The translations under genes and the position numbers were made by a program. From NCBI RefSeq assembly GCF_900101095.1, contig NZ_FNFM01000002.1, positions 186,001 to 250,000 of the forward strand: DNA of 64,000 nucleotides, in the 5' to 3' direction. Within the stretch, counting starts at the first letter, position 1; each line of letters starts with the position of its first letter. Below the pieces are notes generated by a model. That model saw only the letters and a list, made by a program, of their open reading frames with translations. It was not told where the DNA came from and made no database searches. This DNA comes from Actinopolyspora mzabensis. Its GTDB lineage: Bacteria > Actinomycetota > Actinomycetes > Mycobacteriales > Pseudonocardiaceae. Shown one piece after another: positions 17,700 to 63,580 of the stretch.

Positions 17700-17733
17700 T
17701 CGCCGAGCGCGCTGCCACGCCCGGGCGCGGCGG

Positions 17734-17751
17734 CGATTTCGCGAGAAATTG
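17734..17751 (-). repeat. Dispersed hairpin repeat, copy 4 (inverted orientation)
   Basis: CGATTTCGCGAGAAATTG: the loop is GCGA, the reverse complement of the usual TCGC, so this copy is inverted relative to copies 1 and 2. It starts 35 nt after the end of copy 3. Confidence 0.8.
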
Positions 17752-17784
17752 ACGGTGCCGTGCCGGAAAGGGGCACCGCCGTTC

Positions 17785-19221: not shown

Positions 19222-19632
19222 TTGGTATGCACCCTTCGTGTCGAAGCTGACGGGGACTCGCACGGACAGGTGGGTGTGGCGCAGATAACTAACGCTGTAA
19301 GTTTTGGGAACGCTAACGGCGAAGCGCGGCAATCACAAGAGGGCAGCGGAACTCGATCTTGAAAAGTACGAAAGGGATCGGCGGCGGCAGAGCGGGCGCC
19401 GCCGGAGAACGGAGAGCGCGGCGAGGGCGCGACGGAAGAACGCGACCGTCTTCCGGAGGTTCGAGCCGACCCGGCACAGCACGGTCCACAGTGGTCGTAC
19501 GCTGTGGCGGGAGAAGTGGCTAGCGGGGGCGACGAGCGCCCGAGCCCCGTCGTCATGCCGGACGATCGGAGGAGGACGGAACGAGTGGTTCTCACAGCGC
19601 GTTCGCGCCGCTAGAATTCCAGGTCAGTGAAT
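19222..19632. other. Intergenic region, probable CRISPR leader side
   Basis: 410 nt between the transporter start and the first CRISPR repeat. The array's canonical repeat orientation and its degenerate right end both place the leader here. The sequence near 19289-19317 has two AACGCT boxes close to the transporter start, possibly part of its promoter. I find no gene. Confidence 0.45.
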
Positions 19633-19904
19633 GTAGGCCCCGCGCACGCGGGGACGGACCGAGCCAGCGTGGGGTTCCCATGTGCGCTGCACCGTAGGCC
19701 CCGCGCACACGGGGATGGACCGGTGGGCGACCGGACGGGCCAGGGTAGCGCTGGGTAGGTCCCGCACACGCGGGGATGGACCCTCCTCGCGCTGAATTAG
19801 CGAATCGATCCGGTGGTAGGCCTCGCGCACGCGGGGATGGATCGTACGCGTGTTCGACCGGGTCGAGGCTCACGAGGCTGGCCCCGTGCACTCGAGGCCA
19901 GCCT
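19633..19904 (+). CRISPR. Short type I-E-like CRISPR array, no cas genes nearby
   Basis: Four recognisable repeats start at 19633, 19694, 19755 and 19816 with an exact 61-nt period (28-29-nt repeat, 32-33-nt spacers). A fifth, degenerate unit (19877-19904, about 18 of 28 positions matching) keeps the same phase. The repeat core CCCCGCGCACGCGGGG (repeat 2 has CCCCGCGCACACGGGG, repeat 3 TCCCGCACACGCGGGG, repeat 4 CTCGCGCACGCGGGG) followed by ATGGACC is the actinobacterial I-E type. Orientation and the decayed right end put the leader on the left. The spacers show no match elsewhere in the window by eye. No cas gene is in the window, so the array depends on distant cas genes or is a relic. Confidence 0.9.
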
Positions 19905-21172: not shown

Positions 21173-22399
21173 TCAGTCGGGCAGCACCTCGCGCATGACC
21201 CGGATCGTGTTGCCGCCCATGATCGCGGCGATGTCGGCCTCGGAATGCCCGCGGTCGCGCAGTTCCTGCGTGATCACCGCGATGTCGCTGGTGTCCCAAC
21301 CGACCGTCGTCGACCCGTCGTAGTCGCTGCCCAAGGCGGCCGTCTCGATGCCGCCGACGTCGATGACGTGCTCGATGGCGTCGACCACGGCGGCGGGAGT
21401 GGTGTCGCAGACGGCGGCGTCCCAGTAGCCGATGCCGACGACTCCGCCGGTACGCGCCACGCCGCGGATCTCCTCGTCGGTCAGGTTGCGGTTGACGTCG
21501 CAGGTGGCCTGCACACCGCCGTGGCTGTAGACCACGGGTTTCGTGGCACGGTCGAGCATCTCGGCCACCGCGCGGTGGCTGGAGTGTGCGATGTCGACGA
21601 TGACCCCCCGTTGTTCCAGCTCGTCGAACACCCGGCGGCCCAGCTCGGTGAGTCCGCCCTTGTCGATACCGTGCATCGAGCCGACGAGCTCGTTGTCGAA
21701 GAAGTGGGCGAAGCTCGCCATCCGCATGCCGGCGTCGAACAGCACCTCGACGTTTTCCTGCTCGCCCTCGAGATTGTGCAGGCCTTCGACGGAGAAGAGC
21801 GCGCCGGTGACCCGCTCACCAGCTTCGCGGGCGGCGATCAGCTCGTCGAGGTCGGCTCCGGTGCGGATCCGCACCAGGCGACCGTCGGAACGCGCGGCCG
21901 CGTCGCTGAGCTTCTCGGCGTGGTAGAGCGATCGCTCGAGCAGCGAGGTCCACGTCGCCGGTGGCTGCAGCTGGGCGATGGCCAGCGGGGTGATGTTGTC
22001 GGTGTCGGCGGAGTTGGATTCGTAGTTCTGCCCCCTCGGGGACTTCGACACCGACGAGAACACCTGGAGGCTCACGTTGCCCTCCTCGAGCCGAGGCAGG
22101 TCGACGTGCCCGCGCTCGGAGCGCTCGAGCAGGTCACGGTCCCACATCAGCGTGTCGGCGTGCATGTCCACGATCGGCAGTGAATCGTGCAGCTCCCGCG
22201 TGGAGGCGTCGACCGTGGGAAGGCGGGTGTCGACGACCTGGTTCATCCTGCGCTCGACGATCCCGGGCGCGAACACGAAGAACGCGATCACCGCGAGCAC
22301 CACGAAGATCGACCCCGCAATGACGGTCCACCGCAGCCACCCGCGCTTGATCCGAGCCACGAACGCGAACCGTAGCGCTTTCACCGATCCGTGGTCCAT
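21173..22399 (-). CDS. Membrane-anchored dipeptidase, peptidase M19 family
   Basis: 408 residues. An N-terminal transmembrane anchor (WTVIAGSIFVVLAVIAFFVFA) precedes the M19 amidohydrolase barrel. Metal motifs are visible: DMHADTLMWDRD (HxD), the VEGLHNLE...DAGMRMASFAHF segment with the bridging glutamate, VDIAHSSHR and VVYSHGG (the two later histidines), and GSDYDG. It hydrolyses dipeptides, probably including D-amino-acid-containing ones, on the outer face. The ATG at 22399 sits inside a CRISPR-like repeat; a GTG at 22384 is an equally plausible start. The frame extends further upstream, but that part is repeat-derived. Confidence 0.85.
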   Translation of the reverse strand: MDHGSVKALRFAFVARIKRGWLRWTVIAGSIFVVLAVIAFFVFAPGIVERRMNQVVDTRLPTVDASTRELHDSLPIVDMHADTLMWDRDLLERSERGHVDLPRLEEGNVSLQVFSSVSKSPRGQNYESNSADTDNITPLAIAQLQPPATWTSLLERSLYHAEKLSDAAARSDGRLVRIRTGADLDELIAAREAGERVTGALFSVEGLHNLEGEQENVEVLFDAGMRMASFAHFFDNELVGSMHGIDKGGLTELGRRVFDELEQRGVIVDIAHSSHRAVAEMLDRATKPVVYSHGGVQATCDVNRNLTDEEIRGVARTGGVVGIGYWDAAVCDTTPAAVVDAIEHVIDVGGIETAALGSDYDGSTTVGWDTSDIAVITQELRDRGHSEADIAAIMGGNTIRVMREVLPD

Positions 22400-22422
22400 C
22401 CCCGCGCACGCGGGGATCGGCC
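22395..22422 (+). repeat. Solitary CRISPR-repeat-like sequence at the dipeptidase start
   Basis: An 18-nt core, CCCCGCGCACGCGGGGAT, matches the consensus of the array repeats 2.5 kb away (19633-19904), in the same orientation. The flanks have diverged and there is no second copy at 61 nt. It overlaps the proposed ATG of the dipeptidase gene. Confidence 0.6.
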
Positions 22423-22559
22423 CGGCTCGGCTGTGCACCGGCGAACAGGAATGACACCTCCGAACAGCAGCGACGGCCGAGCGATGCTCTCGACCGCGGC
22501 CTGCATCCGGGCGAGCCCCGGCTCGACCGGGATCGCTCCGCAGGACTTGCCGCATGTCG

Positions 22560-27422: not shown

Positions 27423-27535
27423 AAGCTTCCGCCACCACTTCGCCCCGCACTACCCGACTTCGCCCAGCACTACCCGCCCCGGGAAACGGCGGGAGGATCG
27501 CTGCCTCGCCACTTTCGCCCGGCCTCGGAGCGCGT

Positions 27536-27553
27536 CAATTTCTCGCGAAATCG
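27536..27553 (+). repeat. Dispersed hairpin repeat, copy 5
   Basis: CAATTTCTCGCGAAATCG, between the 3' ends of the small-gene cassette and the convergent DUF4229 gene. Confidence 0.8.
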
Positions 27554-27592
27554 CCGGGCGGGTGGGGGCGAACAACTAATCGGAAGGTGAGT

Positions 27593-29257: not shown

Positions 29258-29294
29258 ACGCCCCCAGTACGGCGGTACGCGGCCCGGGCAGCGT

Positions 29295-29312
29295 CAATTT
29301 CTCGCGAAATCG
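29295..29312 (+). repeat. Dispersed hairpin repeat, copy 8, linked to structured element A
   Basis: CAATTTCTCGCGAAATCG followed by CGCGCC-CTTCGACGC, a flank shared with the copy at 62514 that also precedes a structured element. Confidence 0.85.
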
Positions 29313-29381
29313 CCGCGCCCCTTCGACGCGGGCCGAGCTCCGAGCACCCTCGCAAGCCGAGCTCCGGCCACCCTCGCCACC

Positions 29382-29492
29382 GGCACCGCCGCGGGTTCTC
29401 CCGTGCGGCTCTCGCGAGGACGCCGGAGACGTTGTGTAGTAACTACCCGATGTCTCCGGACCCGCAGCGAGAGCCGTGCGCGAGGTTCCGCC
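29382..29492 (+). repeat. 111-nt structured repeat, copy A
   Basis: Starts GGCACCGCCGCGGGTTCTC and ends GAGGTTCCGCC. Outer stem GGCTCTCGC/GCGAGAGCC (29407-29415, 29467-29475), inner stem CCGGAGAC/GTCTCCGG (29423-29430, 29452-29459), loop GTTGTGTAG-TAA-CTACCCGAT with its own GTAG/CTAC pairing. Other copies are at 41952-42062 (minus) and 62577-62687 (plus); the inner stem differs in sequence but stays paired. Here it lies between two convergent 3' ends. Confidence 0.8.
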
Positions 29493-29530
29493 AAGCTAGC
29501 CCTTCGGCAGCCTGCGAAGTAAACGTCTCG

Positions 29531-31039
29531 TCAGCCGGCCTGCTGCCTACCGGCTGCGTGCGGGAAGTCGTCGGCCACCGTGGCCGCCAGCTCGAGCAGC
29601 GCCAGCCTGGTGGAAGCGGCCAGCTGGTCCAGATCGACCTCCGCGCCCTCCTCCAGGTGCGGATCGAACGGGATCTTGGAGACCGAGCGGCACCGCGAGC
29701 CGAAGTGCGCGGCCAACTTGTCGACGTCGACCTTGCCGGAGCCCGGCCGCACCGAGTTGATGATCGCCACCGAACGCGACACCAGCTCGCCGTAACCGTG
29801 GGCGTCCAACCAGTCCAGTGTGGCCGAAGCGCTGCGCGCGCCGTCGATGGAGCCCGGCGAGACGATGACCAGCGAGTCGGCCACGTCCAGCACCCCTTTC
29901 ATCGCGGAGTGCATCAACCCGGTCCCGCAGTCGGTGAGCACCACGTTGTAGAAGTGCTCCAGCAGGTCGACGGCGGTGCGGTAGTCGTTCTCGCTGAACG
30001 CCTCGGAAACCGCCGGGTCCTGCTCGCTGGCGAGGATCTCCAGCCTGCTCGGGCCCTGCGAGGTGTAGGAGCGCACGTCGCTGTACTTGCGGATGCGCGG
30101 CGCGTCCCGCAGCAGGTGACGCACGGTCGCGGTGGTCTCGAGCGGGATCTTCTGGCTCAGCGTCCCCCGGTCCGGGTTGGCGTCCACCGCGACCACCCGG
30201 TCGCCGCGCAGCGAGGAGAACGTGGAGCCGAGCGTGGCGGTGGTGGTGGTCTTGCCGACCCCGCCCTTGAGGCTGAGCATGGCGATCTTGTAGCAGCCGT
30301 GGAGCGGCTGGTTGATGCGCGAGATCAGCTCCCTGCGGTGCACATCGGCCGGGCTCTCGCCCGGGTTGATGGTTTTGCCGCTGGCGAGGTAGATCGCGCG
30401 CCGCCATCCCGACTGCGGCGGACGCTTGGCCTGGCGCAGCAACTGCGCCGAGGACAGGTCCTGCGCGGCGGCGGGATCCTGCTGACCGGGCGGCACCTGT
30501 TGCATACCGGGAACGGGCTGGGGTTGCTGACCGGGTTGGGGCTGCTGGCCCGGTTGAGGCTGGACCCACTGCTGCCCCGGGACGGGGTGCTGGCCGGGGG
30601 CCTGTTGGCTGGGGGCCTGCTGGTTGGGCGGAACCCCCTGTGGCGGATAGGGCTGCCCGGGTGCGGCGGCGTACGGCCCGGAAGTGCTTCCCGGAGCCGG
30701 GTACGGACCGGACGGGGCGTTTGGCGGCATCTGGTACGGGCCGGACTGTGCCTGGTTCGGATCACCGCCGGGAACCGGCCTGGGCCCCGAAGCCGCGGGA
30801 TTGGCGTACGGGTTGACCACCGGATTCGGGCCGGACTGGGGATACTGCCCCGGCACGGGGTACTGCTGTGCCTGCTCGGGATGACCTCCCGCCTGCTGGG
30901 CGGGAGCGCCGTAGTCGGGGGCGGCGTGCCCCGACGAGGACGAGCTCTCGGCCGACTCCGCGTTCGGTTCCGCTCCTCCCCCGGCGGGAAACCGTCCCGA
31001 ATCCTGCCGGGCGTCCGGCTCGTCGTTTCTTCCGGTCAC
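29531..31039 (-). CDS. ParA/MinD-like ATPase with proline-rich N-terminus (EspI-like)
   Basis: 502 residues. The first ~210 residues are Pro/Gln/Gly-rich with repeated PGQQPQ-type units. The C-terminal ~290 residues are a SIMIBI ATPase: IAMLSLKGGVGKTTTTATLG (deviant Walker A), VVAVDANPDRGTLS (A'), NVVLTDCGTGLMHSAM (Walker B) and VIVSPGSIDGARSA. This architecture matches ESX-associated proteins such as EspI and the Rv0530-type ATPase at the same place in the mycobacterial gene order. It may position or regulate secretion or septal components. No ParB partner is adjacent. Confidence 0.85.
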   Translation of the reverse strand: MTGRNDEPDARQDSGRFPAGGGAEPNAESAESSSSSGHAAPDYGAPAQQAGGHPEQAQQYPVPGQYPQSGPNPVVNPYANPAASGPRPVPGGDPNQAQSGPYQMPPNAPSGPYPAPGSTSGPYAAAPGQPYPPQGVPPNQQAPSQQAPGQHPVPGQQWVQPQPGQQPQPGQQPQPVPGMQQVPPGQQDPAAAQDLSSAQLLRQAKRPPQSGWRRAIYLASGKTINPGESPADVHRRELISRINQPLHGCYKIAMLSLKGGVGKTTTTATLGSTFSSLRGDRVVAVDANPDRGTLSQKIPLETTATVRHLLRDAPRIRKYSDVRSYTSQGPSRLEILASEQDPAVSEAFSENDYRTAVDLLEHFYNVVLTDCGTGLMHSAMKGVLDVADSLVIVSPGSIDGARSASATLDWLDAHGYGELVSRSVAIINSVRPGSGKVDVDKLAAHFGSRCRSVSKIPFDPHLEEGAEVDLDQLAASTRLALLELAATVADDFPHAAGRQQAG

Positions 31040-40342: not shown

Positions 40343-40900
40343 TCAACCGGGGCGACGAACCCCCGGTCCGGCGAAGAAACGCCTGGAATCACCACGCAGC
40401 AGCAGTACGAACACCGCGATGTTCAGTGCCGCGATCACAGTGGTGAACAGCACAGTCAGCGGGCCGACCGCCATCTCGGGCATCAGCTGCGGTCCCAGCA
40501 CCGACCGGGCCATGCTGATGGTGAACCACGCGAACAACCTGCCGCAGACGTACAGCCCGCAGAGGACCATCACCAGCACGCGTGCCCAGTTGGCACCACG
40601 CGCCATCCGGTTGCCGAAGAACACGTACAACAGCGTCAGCCCGGCCATGACCAACAGCGCGAACATGATCCCGCCGTTGGCCGCCGCGTCCACTTCCTGC
40701 TGCGACAGCTCGGGGTTGACCCGCCGCAGCTCGCCGATGAGCATCTCGCGGTCGGCCAACCGCACCAGCGTGTTCCCCAGCCCCACGAGCGCGGCGGCTA
40801 TCCACAGCCACCTGGCCAACCACACCGAGCGGGGCGGTGCGGTGGGTGCGGAAGGAGCGCGGTGGTCCACACCGCCGTGCGGGTCGGGCGGCGCGGTCAC
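40343..40900 (-). CDS. Four-helix membrane protein related to the 39472 product
   Basis: 185 residues, four transmembrane helices. The short loop [20 protein letters not shown] matches the adjacent protein's KMRAGRNWARITLTVLAGAW, indicating a shared family. GTG 40900 overlaps the hemB stop (GTGA), so it is translationally coupled to the heme operon. Function unknown. Confidence 0.65.
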
Positions 40901-41892
40901 GCGGCATCCCCTCCGGACTCCTCGCGCAGCCAGCGGGCCGCCCGCGCGGCCCAGTAGGTCAGCACGATGTCGGCCCCGGAACGGCGTAGCGAGGTCAGGG
41001 TCTCCAGCACCGTTCGACGCCGGTCCAGCCAGCCGCGTTCGACGGCGGCCTCGATCATCGAGTACTCCCCGGAGACCTGATAGGCAGCGACCGGGACCTC
41101 GGAGATCTCGGCGGTCTGCCTGACGACGTCGGTGTAGGACATGGCGGGCTTGATCACCACCATGTCCGCGCCCTCGGCGATGTCCTGCCCGACCTCGCGG
41201 GCCGCTTCCCTGCCGTTGGCCGGGTCCTGCTGGTAGGTCTTGCGGTCCCCGGACAGCTGGGAGTCGACCGCGTCGCGGAACGGGCCGTAGAAGGCGGAGG
41301 AGTACTTGGCCGAGTAGGCCAGCAGCGAGGTGTCGTGGAATCCGGCGGCGTCCAGCGTCTCCCGGATGGCGCCGATCTGCCCGTCCATCATGCCGCTGGG
41401 GCCGAGCACGTGCGCCCCCGCCTCGGCCTGCGCGAGCGCCATCTCGCCGTAGAGCCGCAGCGTGCGGTCGTTGTCGACGTTGCCCTGGTCGTCCAGCACA
41501 CCGCAGTGCCCGTGGTCGGTGAACTCGTCCAGGCAGGTGTCGGCCATGAGCACGGTGTCGTCGCCGACCTCGGCCGCGACATCGCGCAGCGCCACGTTGA
41601 GGATCCCGTCCGGGTCGGCGGCGGCCGAGCCGGTGGCGTCCCGTTCACTCGGGACGCCGAACAGCATCAGCCCGCCGACGCCCGCTGCCACGGCGTCCAC
41701 GGCAGCCGCGCGCAGCGAGTCCCTGGTGTGGTGCAGCACGCCCGGCATGGAGGGAATCTCGACGGGCTCCGTCGCGCCCTCGCGGACGAACATCGGCAGC
41801 ACCAGGTGCCGCGGCCGCACCTCGGTCTCGGAGACCAGCCGCCGCAGCGCGGCGTTGCGGCGCAGCCTGCGCGGGCGGACCGACGGGTACAT
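40897..41892 (-). CDS. hemB: Delta-aminolevulinic acid dehydratase (porphobilinogen synthase)
   Basis: 331 residues. Condenses two 5-aminolevulinates to porphobilinogen. Zn-type metal site [17 protein letters not shown], the Schiff-base lysines in [18 protein letters not shown] and [13 protein letters not shown], and [12 protein letters not shown]. Full length. It is separated from hemD by 315 nt holding a structured repeat (copy C). Confidence 0.96.
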
Positions 41893-41951: not shown

Positions 41952-42062
41952 GGCGGAACCTCTCGCACGGCTCTCGCTGCGGGAGGCCCGACATCGGGTA
42001 GCGACCTACACAACGTCGGGCCTTCCTCGCGAGAGCCGCACGCGAGAACCCGCGGCGGTGCC
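41952..42062 (-). repeat. 111-nt structured repeat, copy C (between hemD and hemB)
   Basis: Minus-strand copy of the element at 29382. Inner stem GGCCCGAC/GTCGGGCC (pairing 41985-41992 with 42015-42022), outer stem GGCTCTCGC/GCGAGAGCC (41969-41977 with 42029-42037), loop GTTGTGTAG-GTCG-CTACCCGAT. One base is lost from the stem side and one gained in the apical loop compared with copies A and B. It lies in the sense direction between hemD and hemB, so it should be in the transcript. Confidence 0.8.
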
Positions 42063-62398: not shown

Positions 62399-62513
62399 GG
62401 CGGCCAACCTACCGTGCGCGAGGGCGTAACGGGTGCGTGGTGTGTCGAACTCACCCGAGATTTTCCGGCACGAACCGGCCACTTGCGCGGCCGGCTCACC
62501 GCTCGTGCGGCGT

Positions 62514-62531
62514 CGATTTCTCGCGAAATCG
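62514..62531 (+). repeat. Dispersed hairpin repeat, copy 9, linked to structured element B
   Basis: CGATTTCTCGCGAAATCG, identical to copies 1 and 2, followed by the CGCGCC-CTTCGACGC-type flank also seen beside element A. Confidence 0.85.
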
Positions 62532-62576
62532 CCGCGCCGCTTCGACGCAGGCCGCACTCCGACCACCCTGACCAAC

Positions 62577-62687
62577 GGCACCGCCGCGGGTTCTCCGGTG
62601 CGGCTCTCGCGAGGACGGCCCCGACGTTGTGTAGTAACTACCCGAGGTCGGGGCACCCGCAGCGCGAGCCGTGCCGGAGGTTCCGCC
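62577..62687 (+). repeat. 111-nt structured repeat, copy B
   Basis: Same ends, length and loop (GTTGTGTAG-TAA-CTACCCGAG) as copy A. Inner stem CCCCGAC/GTCGGGG (62619-62625, 62647-62653) differs from A and C but pairs perfectly. Outer stem GGCTCTCGC/GCGCGAGCC has one mismatch. It lies between ppx and regX3, antisense to both. Confidence 0.8.
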
Positions 62688-62757
62688 ACCAGCACCCTCA
62701 CGAGCGCCGGGCCGCGGAATCCGTCCTCGGTGCCACGCAGCGCGGGTGTCCCCGGTG

Positions 62758-62846
62758 CGTGAGTCGGATGCATTGCAAGGCCGGGCCGCTCGCCGCGTAG
62801 GTCGCTACTCAAGAGCCGGCCCAACGCCGCAAGGCGCCGACTCACG
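62758..62846 (+). repeat. Second folded element near copy B
   Basis: 10-bp outer stem CGTGAGTCGG/CCGACTCACG (62758-62767, 62837-62846), an inner GGGCCGCTC/GAGCCGGCCC pairing with one bulge, and an apical GTAG-GTCG-CTAC identical to the apex of structured copy C. Possibly a diverged relative, 70 nt from copy B. Confidence 0.5.
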
Positions 62847-62893
62847 TGCCGGCTACCAGACCCACTCGGCAAACCGGCCGGCCTGAATAGGAG

Positions 62894-63580
62894 TCAGGTT
62901 TCGAACTTGTAGCCGAGTCCTCGTACGGTCAGTAAGTGCTTGGGGTCGGTGGGATCGGGCTCGAGCTTGGCGCGCAGCCGCTTGATGTGCACGTCGAGGG
63001 TCTTGGTGTCGCCGACGTAATCGGCTCCCCACACCCGGTCGATCAGCTGGGCACGGGTCAGTACCCGCCCGATGTTGCGCAGCAGGTACTCCAGCAGGTC
63101 GAACTCCTTGAGCGGCAGCCCGATCTCCTCACCGGAAACGGTGACCACGTGGCGTTCCACATCCATCCGGACCGGTCCCGCCTCCAGCACCTGTCCCGGC
63201 TGGGTGGGCTCCTCCGCCTCACCGCCGCGCCGCAGCACCGCGCGTACCCGGGCGATGAGCTCCCGCGCCGAGTACGGCTTGGTCACGTAGTCGTCGGCCC
63301 CCAGTTCCAGTCCGACCACCTTGTCGATCTCGGCGTCCCTGGCCGTGACCATGATCACCGGAACGGTGGAACGCTGGCGGATCTCCTTGCACACGTCGGT
63401 GCCGCTCATGCCGGGAAGCATCAGGTCGAGCAGCACGATGTCGGCACCGTTGCGCTCGAAATCCTCCAGAGCCTGCTGGCCCGTGGTGGCCACGGATGCG
63501 GTGAATCCCTCCTTGCGCAGCATGAAAGCCATCGGGTCGGCGAAGGACTCCTCGTCCTCCACGATCAGCACCCTGGTCAC
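62894..63580 (-). CDS. regX3: Response regulator RegX3
   Basis: 228 residues from GTG 63580, overlapping the senX3 stop (GTGA). Receiver domain with acidic pocket VEDEES, phospho-acceptor Asp in [13 protein letters not shown] (near residue 52), Thr in VTARD and [11 protein letters not shown]. OmpR-type winged helix ends [10 protein letters not shown]. Partner of SenX3 in phosphate-starvation control. Confidence 0.94.

Follow-up and report, generated by a model that had tools for sequence, protein, structure and literature searches.

The window, that is, the whole stretch of 64,000 nucleotides that was analyzed (G000:C14:186001-250000), belongs to a genome of 5.0 Mb in 24 contigs and contains three copies of a 111-nt hairpin element at 29382-29492 (+), 41952-42062 (-) and 62577-62687 (+), here called copies A, B and C. 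A first-pass annotation had listed these three copies as sharing the same ends, and all of them were confirmed. With a covariance model (R1) based on 34 copies of the element, copy A scored 130.3 bits, copy B 116.0 bits and copy C 120.3 bits. The reader strand is defined here by the reading GCGGGTTCTC ... GAGGTTCCGC; for copy A it is the strand given. The gene beside the 3' end of the element is referred to as the near gene. Genes were predicted with a home-made hexamer gene finder and not taken from an annotation.

The near gene of copy A is predicted at 29531-31039 (-), and gene prediction together with leader comparison placed a 38-nt leader (29493-29530, -) between its stop codon and the element. 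On the far side of copy A lies a palindrome of the CGATTTCTCGCGAAATCG type (repeat family D4; 29289-29326), which is part of the composite described below, and a palindrome of the same type is present on the far side of copy C (62508-62545). Between copy C and the stop codon of the gene predicted at 62894-63580 (-) there are 206 nt, because a second hairpin repeat of similar architecture, SR2 (62741-62853, +), sits between the two, beside the stop codon. Copy B represents the minority case: the gene predicted at 40897-41892 (-) starts 59 nt past the 3' end of the element and runs in the same direction.

The folding of copies A, B and C had z-scores of -7.43, -8.95 and -6.46, respectively, and none of the 200 shuffled sequences per copy folded as well. 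The first-pass annotation had described an inner stem that changes in sequence while its pairing is kept. This holds, but its labels for B and C were swapped: the shorter inner stem, AAGGCCCGAC/GTCGGGCCT, and the apex GTCG belong to the copy at 41952-42062, whereas the copy at 62577-62687 has the inner stem GGCCCCGAC/GTCGGGGC and the apex TAA. Similarly, the 9-bp outer stem described there exists but does not mark the limit of the helix, which continues outside it with GCGGGTTCTC pairing with GAGGTTCCGC, wobble pairs included. The apex pattern GTTGTGTAGN{2,6}CTACCCGA had 59 exact matches in the window's own genome and none in the reversed control, an occurrence far beyond chance.

A fold kept by compensatory change across genera

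To estimate the size of the family, the window's own genome was searched at the DNA level, where 40 of 181 first-look candidates were scored and 41 places were listed: 40 with 100 or more matches to the 111 bases, and a single weak echo on the opposite strand. In 2.35 Mb from five Actinopolyspora genomes (six stretches: G000 twice, G004, G007, G008 and G009) we counted 97 full copies, or ∼41 per Mb; this number covers full copies flanked by a predicted gene on each side, omits partial copies and counts orthologous copies of different species separately. Matches were present in all ten genomes of the genus. In one of these, G006 (4.2 Mb), the element was nearly lost, with two or three matches. 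Within the GTDB family, R1 found the element in 77 of 297 genomes and 15 of 46 genera; with 12 candidates scored per genome, the match numbers of this search do not represent copy numbers.

A strict pattern matched 1 of 394 genomes across the class, the window's own, in a sample that contained few genomes of the family. A pattern of the two conserved blocks was present in 21 of 30 chosen genomes, and all 30 reversed controls gave zero matches. With this pattern, 51 places were counted in the window's own genome, 105 in G123, 91 in G240, 52 in G022, 34 in G008, 28 in G002 and 7 in G021, and none in seven genomes picked as non-carriers, in G006 or in G050. The genera among the matches listed in the pattern scan were Saccharopolyspora, Actinopolyspora, Halopolyspora, Sciscionella and Amycolatopsis (A. 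bartoniae), carriers that include antibiotic producers. One Planctomyces bin among the matches listed also matched the short pattern. A search of a plasmid collection and a phage collection gave no match in either. The earlier statement that the element belongs to no named family agrees with Rfam (release 15), which had no match to the window at the gathering score; the eight weak matches below the cut-off, seven to microRNA precursors and one to a snoRNA, were all far under their gathering scores. In the open-licence papers searched, nothing was recognised as a family of this 111-nt element. Apparently, the element represents a large, unnamed family of structured repeats.

Further copies with compensatory changes were found in the related genomes, and 92-97% of the alignment cells in the stems were paired there. 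Within the genus, 97.1% of the cells were paired and 11 of 41 pairs had changed on both sides. Across genera, in an alignment fitted to the model, 92.4% of the cells were paired, 31 of 41 pairs had changed on both sides, and 429 cells with changes on both sides were counted vs. 115.9 in shuffles; in this alignment the covariation score was 0.411, compared to 0.142 when shuffled and at most 0.090 when slid. Of the 99 rows of A3, 16 were removed by hand prior to the count; apart from the weak row L210:3950, these were echoes of the palindrome on the opposite strand. An alignment made with MAFFT from sequence only gave 96.7% paired cells, 21 of 34 pairs changed on both sides, and a score of 0.421 (0.116 shuffled, at most 0.106 slid). 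The fold of the 111-nt element is thus kept by compensatory change across genera, which supports the first-pass view of a structured RNA or single-stranded DNA element under selection, or of a mobile RNA-like repeat.

Two nearly invariant motifs stand amid varying stems. The first is the outer GCGGGUUCUC/GAGGUUCCGC, including a GUU/GUU wobble motif, and the second is the junction CUCGCGAGGAC/CCCGCAGCGAG. The inner hairpin was quite different in some genera and was absent from one copy (L194).

Placement behind stop codons and exchange with a second hairpin family

Three features had escaped the first-pass annotation: the placement near stop codons, a second, interchangeable family, and the polarity of the strands. 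In a first set of copies from the window's own genome, the near gene pointed at the element in 46 of 52 cases. For the 97 full copies, the near gene ended at the element in 76, with the stop codon 25-60 nt from the element in 64 of these 76 (median 38), and started at the element in the other 21, 15 of them at 39-59 nt. In other genera, where 67 hand-listed matches out of 79 rows were counted, the near gene ended at the element in 49 of 67 (median 39). Of 20 sites fetched in G022, 16 had a predicted near gene, which ended at the element in 15 of them. Most copies thus sit behind a stop codon at a set distance and in one orientation. At two exceptions, located ∼200 nt from the stop codon (L024, which is window copy C, and L028), SR2 or its flank intervenes. 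On the far side, the stop codons of convergent genes lie 63-415 nt from the element. An element was present at 47 of 484 convergent 3' ends vs. 29 of 777 tandem ones (odds ratio 2.8, p 2.6e-5, with orthologous copies counted repeatedly). Many copies of other genera, e.g., L144, L147 and L154, carry at their left flank a short hairpin, AAGCGGC-loop-GCCGCTT, which resembles an intrinsic terminator serving the far gene.

The element is part of a composite. On the gene strand, the usual order is a stop codon, a leader of ∼38 nt, a hairpin that is either the 111-nt element or SR2, one or more 24-nt units, and GATTTCGCGAGAAATC palindromes. In the window, palindromes of this type are located at 852-893, 900-937, 17711-17759, 27530-27567, 29289-29326 and 62508-62545; they often come after the 111-nt element on the gene strand and look like a third dispersed family. 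SR2, with 17 anchors in the six stretches and further copies elsewhere, has the apex GTAG-CGAC-CTAC in common with the 111-nt element. As the window copy of SR2 is weakly recognized by R1 (26.9 bits, E 2.1e-4), SR2 may be a distant relative of the element.

The turnover of these modules was followed by comparing syntenic stretches at ∼92% identity. Where the site of a G000 copy could be mapped, a copy in the same orientation was present at 11 of 14 sites in G007 and at 19 of 21 sites in G004, and one G000 copy was inverted at its mapped site in both. No synteny was found between the first 400 kb of G008:C19 and the first 400 kb of G000:C15, and these two stretches were therefore used for counts only. 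Ten polymorphic or unusual sites were read by eye, and these showed replacement or internal deletion with no clean target duplication. At three of them (A210913/F222605, E152552/A105267 and F126164/E174292) SR2 occupied the position of the element after one and the same stop codon. Between species, the two hairpin families thus stand in for one another at a given gene end. At F213264, an SR2 with its own leader was nested inside a truncated copy of the element. Internal deletions had left one short scar at two loci (E328279 and A251003) and a second scar at two further loci (E261980 and F127059), and leaders can be swapped while the element stays. At the convergent gene pair of A74307, each gene has one cassette, with the element for one gene and SR2 for the other; the arrangement in G000 is opposite to that in G007 and G004, which suggests that the block was inverted. 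As single sites are lost between species, no single copy is essential. Three half-copies end at the apex and the breaks of SR2 chimeras fall at or close to it, too few cases to test the apex as a site of recombination.

Strand polarity and candidate functions

The two strands of the element are not equivalent. In the variable stem columns of 82 distinct sequences, 74 G-U vs. 18 A-C combinations were counted on the reader strand, in 10 vs. 2 columns. A single column supplied 32 of the 74 G-U combinations, and without it the ratio was 42:17 (p 0.0015 vs. equality, uncorrected for relatedness). Recent copies within the genus showed no asymmetry (15:13), and the contrast between the cross-genus and the recent copies had a p of 0.007 with this column and 0.15 (not significant) without it. 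The mean folding energy of 52 copies was -73.6 kcal/mol for the reader strand vs. -62.0 kcal/mol for the opposite (sense) strand, on which the conserved wobble pairs turn into A-C mismatches. On the reader strand the flanks were richer in C than in G at 90 and 88 of the 97 copies, counted without a background control. Taken together, there is moderate support for the reader strand as the selected single strand; relative to the adjacent gene, this is the antisense strand.

The element probably marks or protects gene ends. With somewhat less than even confidence, we favor the interpretation that it is the hairpin module of a modular, strand-polar cassette that is located at the 3' ends of genes and acts as a transcription boundary, the folded strand being antisense to the adjacent gene. 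The target of such a boundary would be RNA polymerase moving into the gene from the 3' end, coming from read-through at a convergent neighbor or from spurious antisense transcription; the C-rich flank and the long hairpin would pause this polymerase and permit factor-dependent (Rho-type) termination, resulting in a polar transcription boundary. The copies would probably have arisen by REP-like spread and would now be exchanged and deleted by recombination. Like intrinsic or Rho-dependent terminators, the element is a hairpin near gene ends that is enriched at convergent genes and has C-rich flanks on one strand. Unlike them, it has internal loops conserved in sequence and is dispersed as one homologous family. 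At the sites read by eye, no run of T followed the hairpin on either strand, and the element is therefore no ordinary intrinsic terminator.

In Saccharopolyspora erythraea, 2.9% of transcription was reported to be antisense, with enrichment at gene 3' ends (PMC3610266), which is compatible with a transcription boundary and no proof of it. The 21 of 97 copies near gene starts instead of gene ends, window copy B included, speak against this interpretation. Furthermore, no exact-pattern copies were found in G009:C1 from 4912321 round to 1642078 (4.91-1.64 Mb, 35%) or in G003:C1:1312143-3379349 (1.31-3.38 Mb, 39%). These copy-free regions lie on the side away from dnaA, and the lack of copies from at least a third of two chromosomes is not predicted by a general function at gene ends.

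The main rival explanation fits nearly as well. Here the element would be a selfish structured repeat (REP/ERIC/MITE-like) that an enzyme acting in trans would mobilize by recognizing its single-stranded hairpin, with a preference for gene 3' ends, so that the fold is kept for mobility and not for the host; we regard this as possible, if somewhat doubtful. The many copies, their presence, absence and replacement between species, and the SR2 nested in a truncated copy are all in line with it, and the apex common to both hairpins is what a single machinery might require. The chromosomal pattern points in the same direction: with dnaA located, the terminus assumed to lie opposite and the counts made by eye from listings, the reader strand ran counter to fork movement in 47 of 52 pattern copies in G022, 38 of 53 in G009 and 29 of 40 in G003, as well as in 33 of 45 in G240 (among 45 listed of 91 places). 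Strand-specific insertion could produce such a bias, as seen in G022 and G009. Of the 220 gene 3' ends in 400 kb of G009 that are followed by 100 nt or more, 128 were leading, and gene orientation may therefore be insufficient to explain all of the fork-strand bias.

Among the candidates searched, no partner enzyme was found, which speaks against a selfish repeat. The Y1 transposase (PF01797, Y1_Tnp) had matches in 8 of the 10 genus genomes, 0 to 7 in each, with a single IS200-type match in the window's genome (G000:C9:62168-62530) and none in G002 and G008, though these carry 28 and 34 pattern copies; a RAYT/IS200 protein as the necessary partner for mobilization is thereby ruled out. The half-copies cut at the apex raised the idea of a SINE-like retroelement, which was rejected because the reverse transcriptase RVT_1 (PF00078) was missing in 9 of the 10 genus genomes. 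In addition, inspection of the polymorphic sites by eye showed no evident target duplication, and the same-orientation retention in G007 and G004 together with the gap opposite dnaA indicates a slow and old spread, not active hopping.

REP and BIME sequences are extragenic hairpin repeats, present in hundreds near gene 3' ends and in mosaics with short modules, for which roles in termination or mRNA stability have been proposed. The 111-nt element resembles them in being a hairpin repeat outside genes, near gene 3' ends and in mosaics with other short modules, and the combination of leader, hairpin or SR2, 24-nt units and palindromes is a BIME-like feature. With 111 nt and conserved internal loops, it is unlike REP palindromes, for which the abstract of PMC3733652 gives 20-40 nt. 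It also differs from REP and BIME sequences in having a scaffold that covaries over genera and, in this family, a fixed leader of ∼38 nt. ERIC and Correia (NEMIS) elements are small, MITE-like imperfect palindromes of 100-150 nt in intergenic DNA. The element shares their architecture, intergenic location and similar size; unlike them, it is strictly oriented and spaced relative to stop codons and has undergone compensatory evolution over many genera. Integron attC sites are imperfect palindromes just behind a stop codon with a strand-specific fold and the core boxes RYYYAAC ... GTTRRRY. The element has such a position and fold, but in both arms its invariant ends show GGTTC on one and the same strand instead of complementary core boxes, and its copies are dispersed and not in cassette arrays; identity with attC, judged by eye against the attC consensus, was rejected. 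The element behaves like REP/BIME sequences, yet in the features tested it did not pass as a RAYT-REP, a retroelement, an intrinsic terminator or a member of an Rfam family.

It is quite unlikely that the element acts at the 3' end of the mRNA, as a sense hairpin behind the stop codon that protects the transcript of the adjacent gene from 3' exonucleases or is processed there. This would account for the constant spacing from the sense gene's stop codon, and the sense strand does still fold, but its fold is the weaker one with A-C mismatches at the conserved wobbles, and 21 of the 97 copies have no such gene end. Independent small RNAs from the reader strand, in which the invariant internal loops (GUU/GUU; GAGGACAG with AUCCCGCAG) within the covarying stems would form a protein-binding site, would fit the strand asymmetry and are highly improbable, as they would leave unexplained why a stop codon on the opposite strand lies at a constant distance.

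The transcription boundary can also be taken in a stricter sense, as a dedicated gene-boundary device. An antisense-strand fold behind stop codons would, across a bacterial family, stop polymerases entering genes backward; its hairpin modules would be interchangeable, and it would prefer convergent and leading-strand genes, where such polymerases would meet the replisome head-on. We consider this unlikely as a whole. The family, from actinomycetes that include antibiotic producers, combines unusually strong compensatory evolution with a set position at the 3' ends of genes. With dozens to hundreds of copies per genome that are present, absent or swapped between close species, it offers a natural experiment on whether such a repeat is selfish or has a role in termination, antisense control or mRNA ends. 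As strand-specific RNA-seq of S. erythraea has been published (PMC3610266), the main prediction is checkable on existing data.

Elsewhere in the window, repeats with a spacing of 61 nt are present. They are located at 19632-19850 and 22394-22429 and look like a small CRISPR array, possibly of type I-E.
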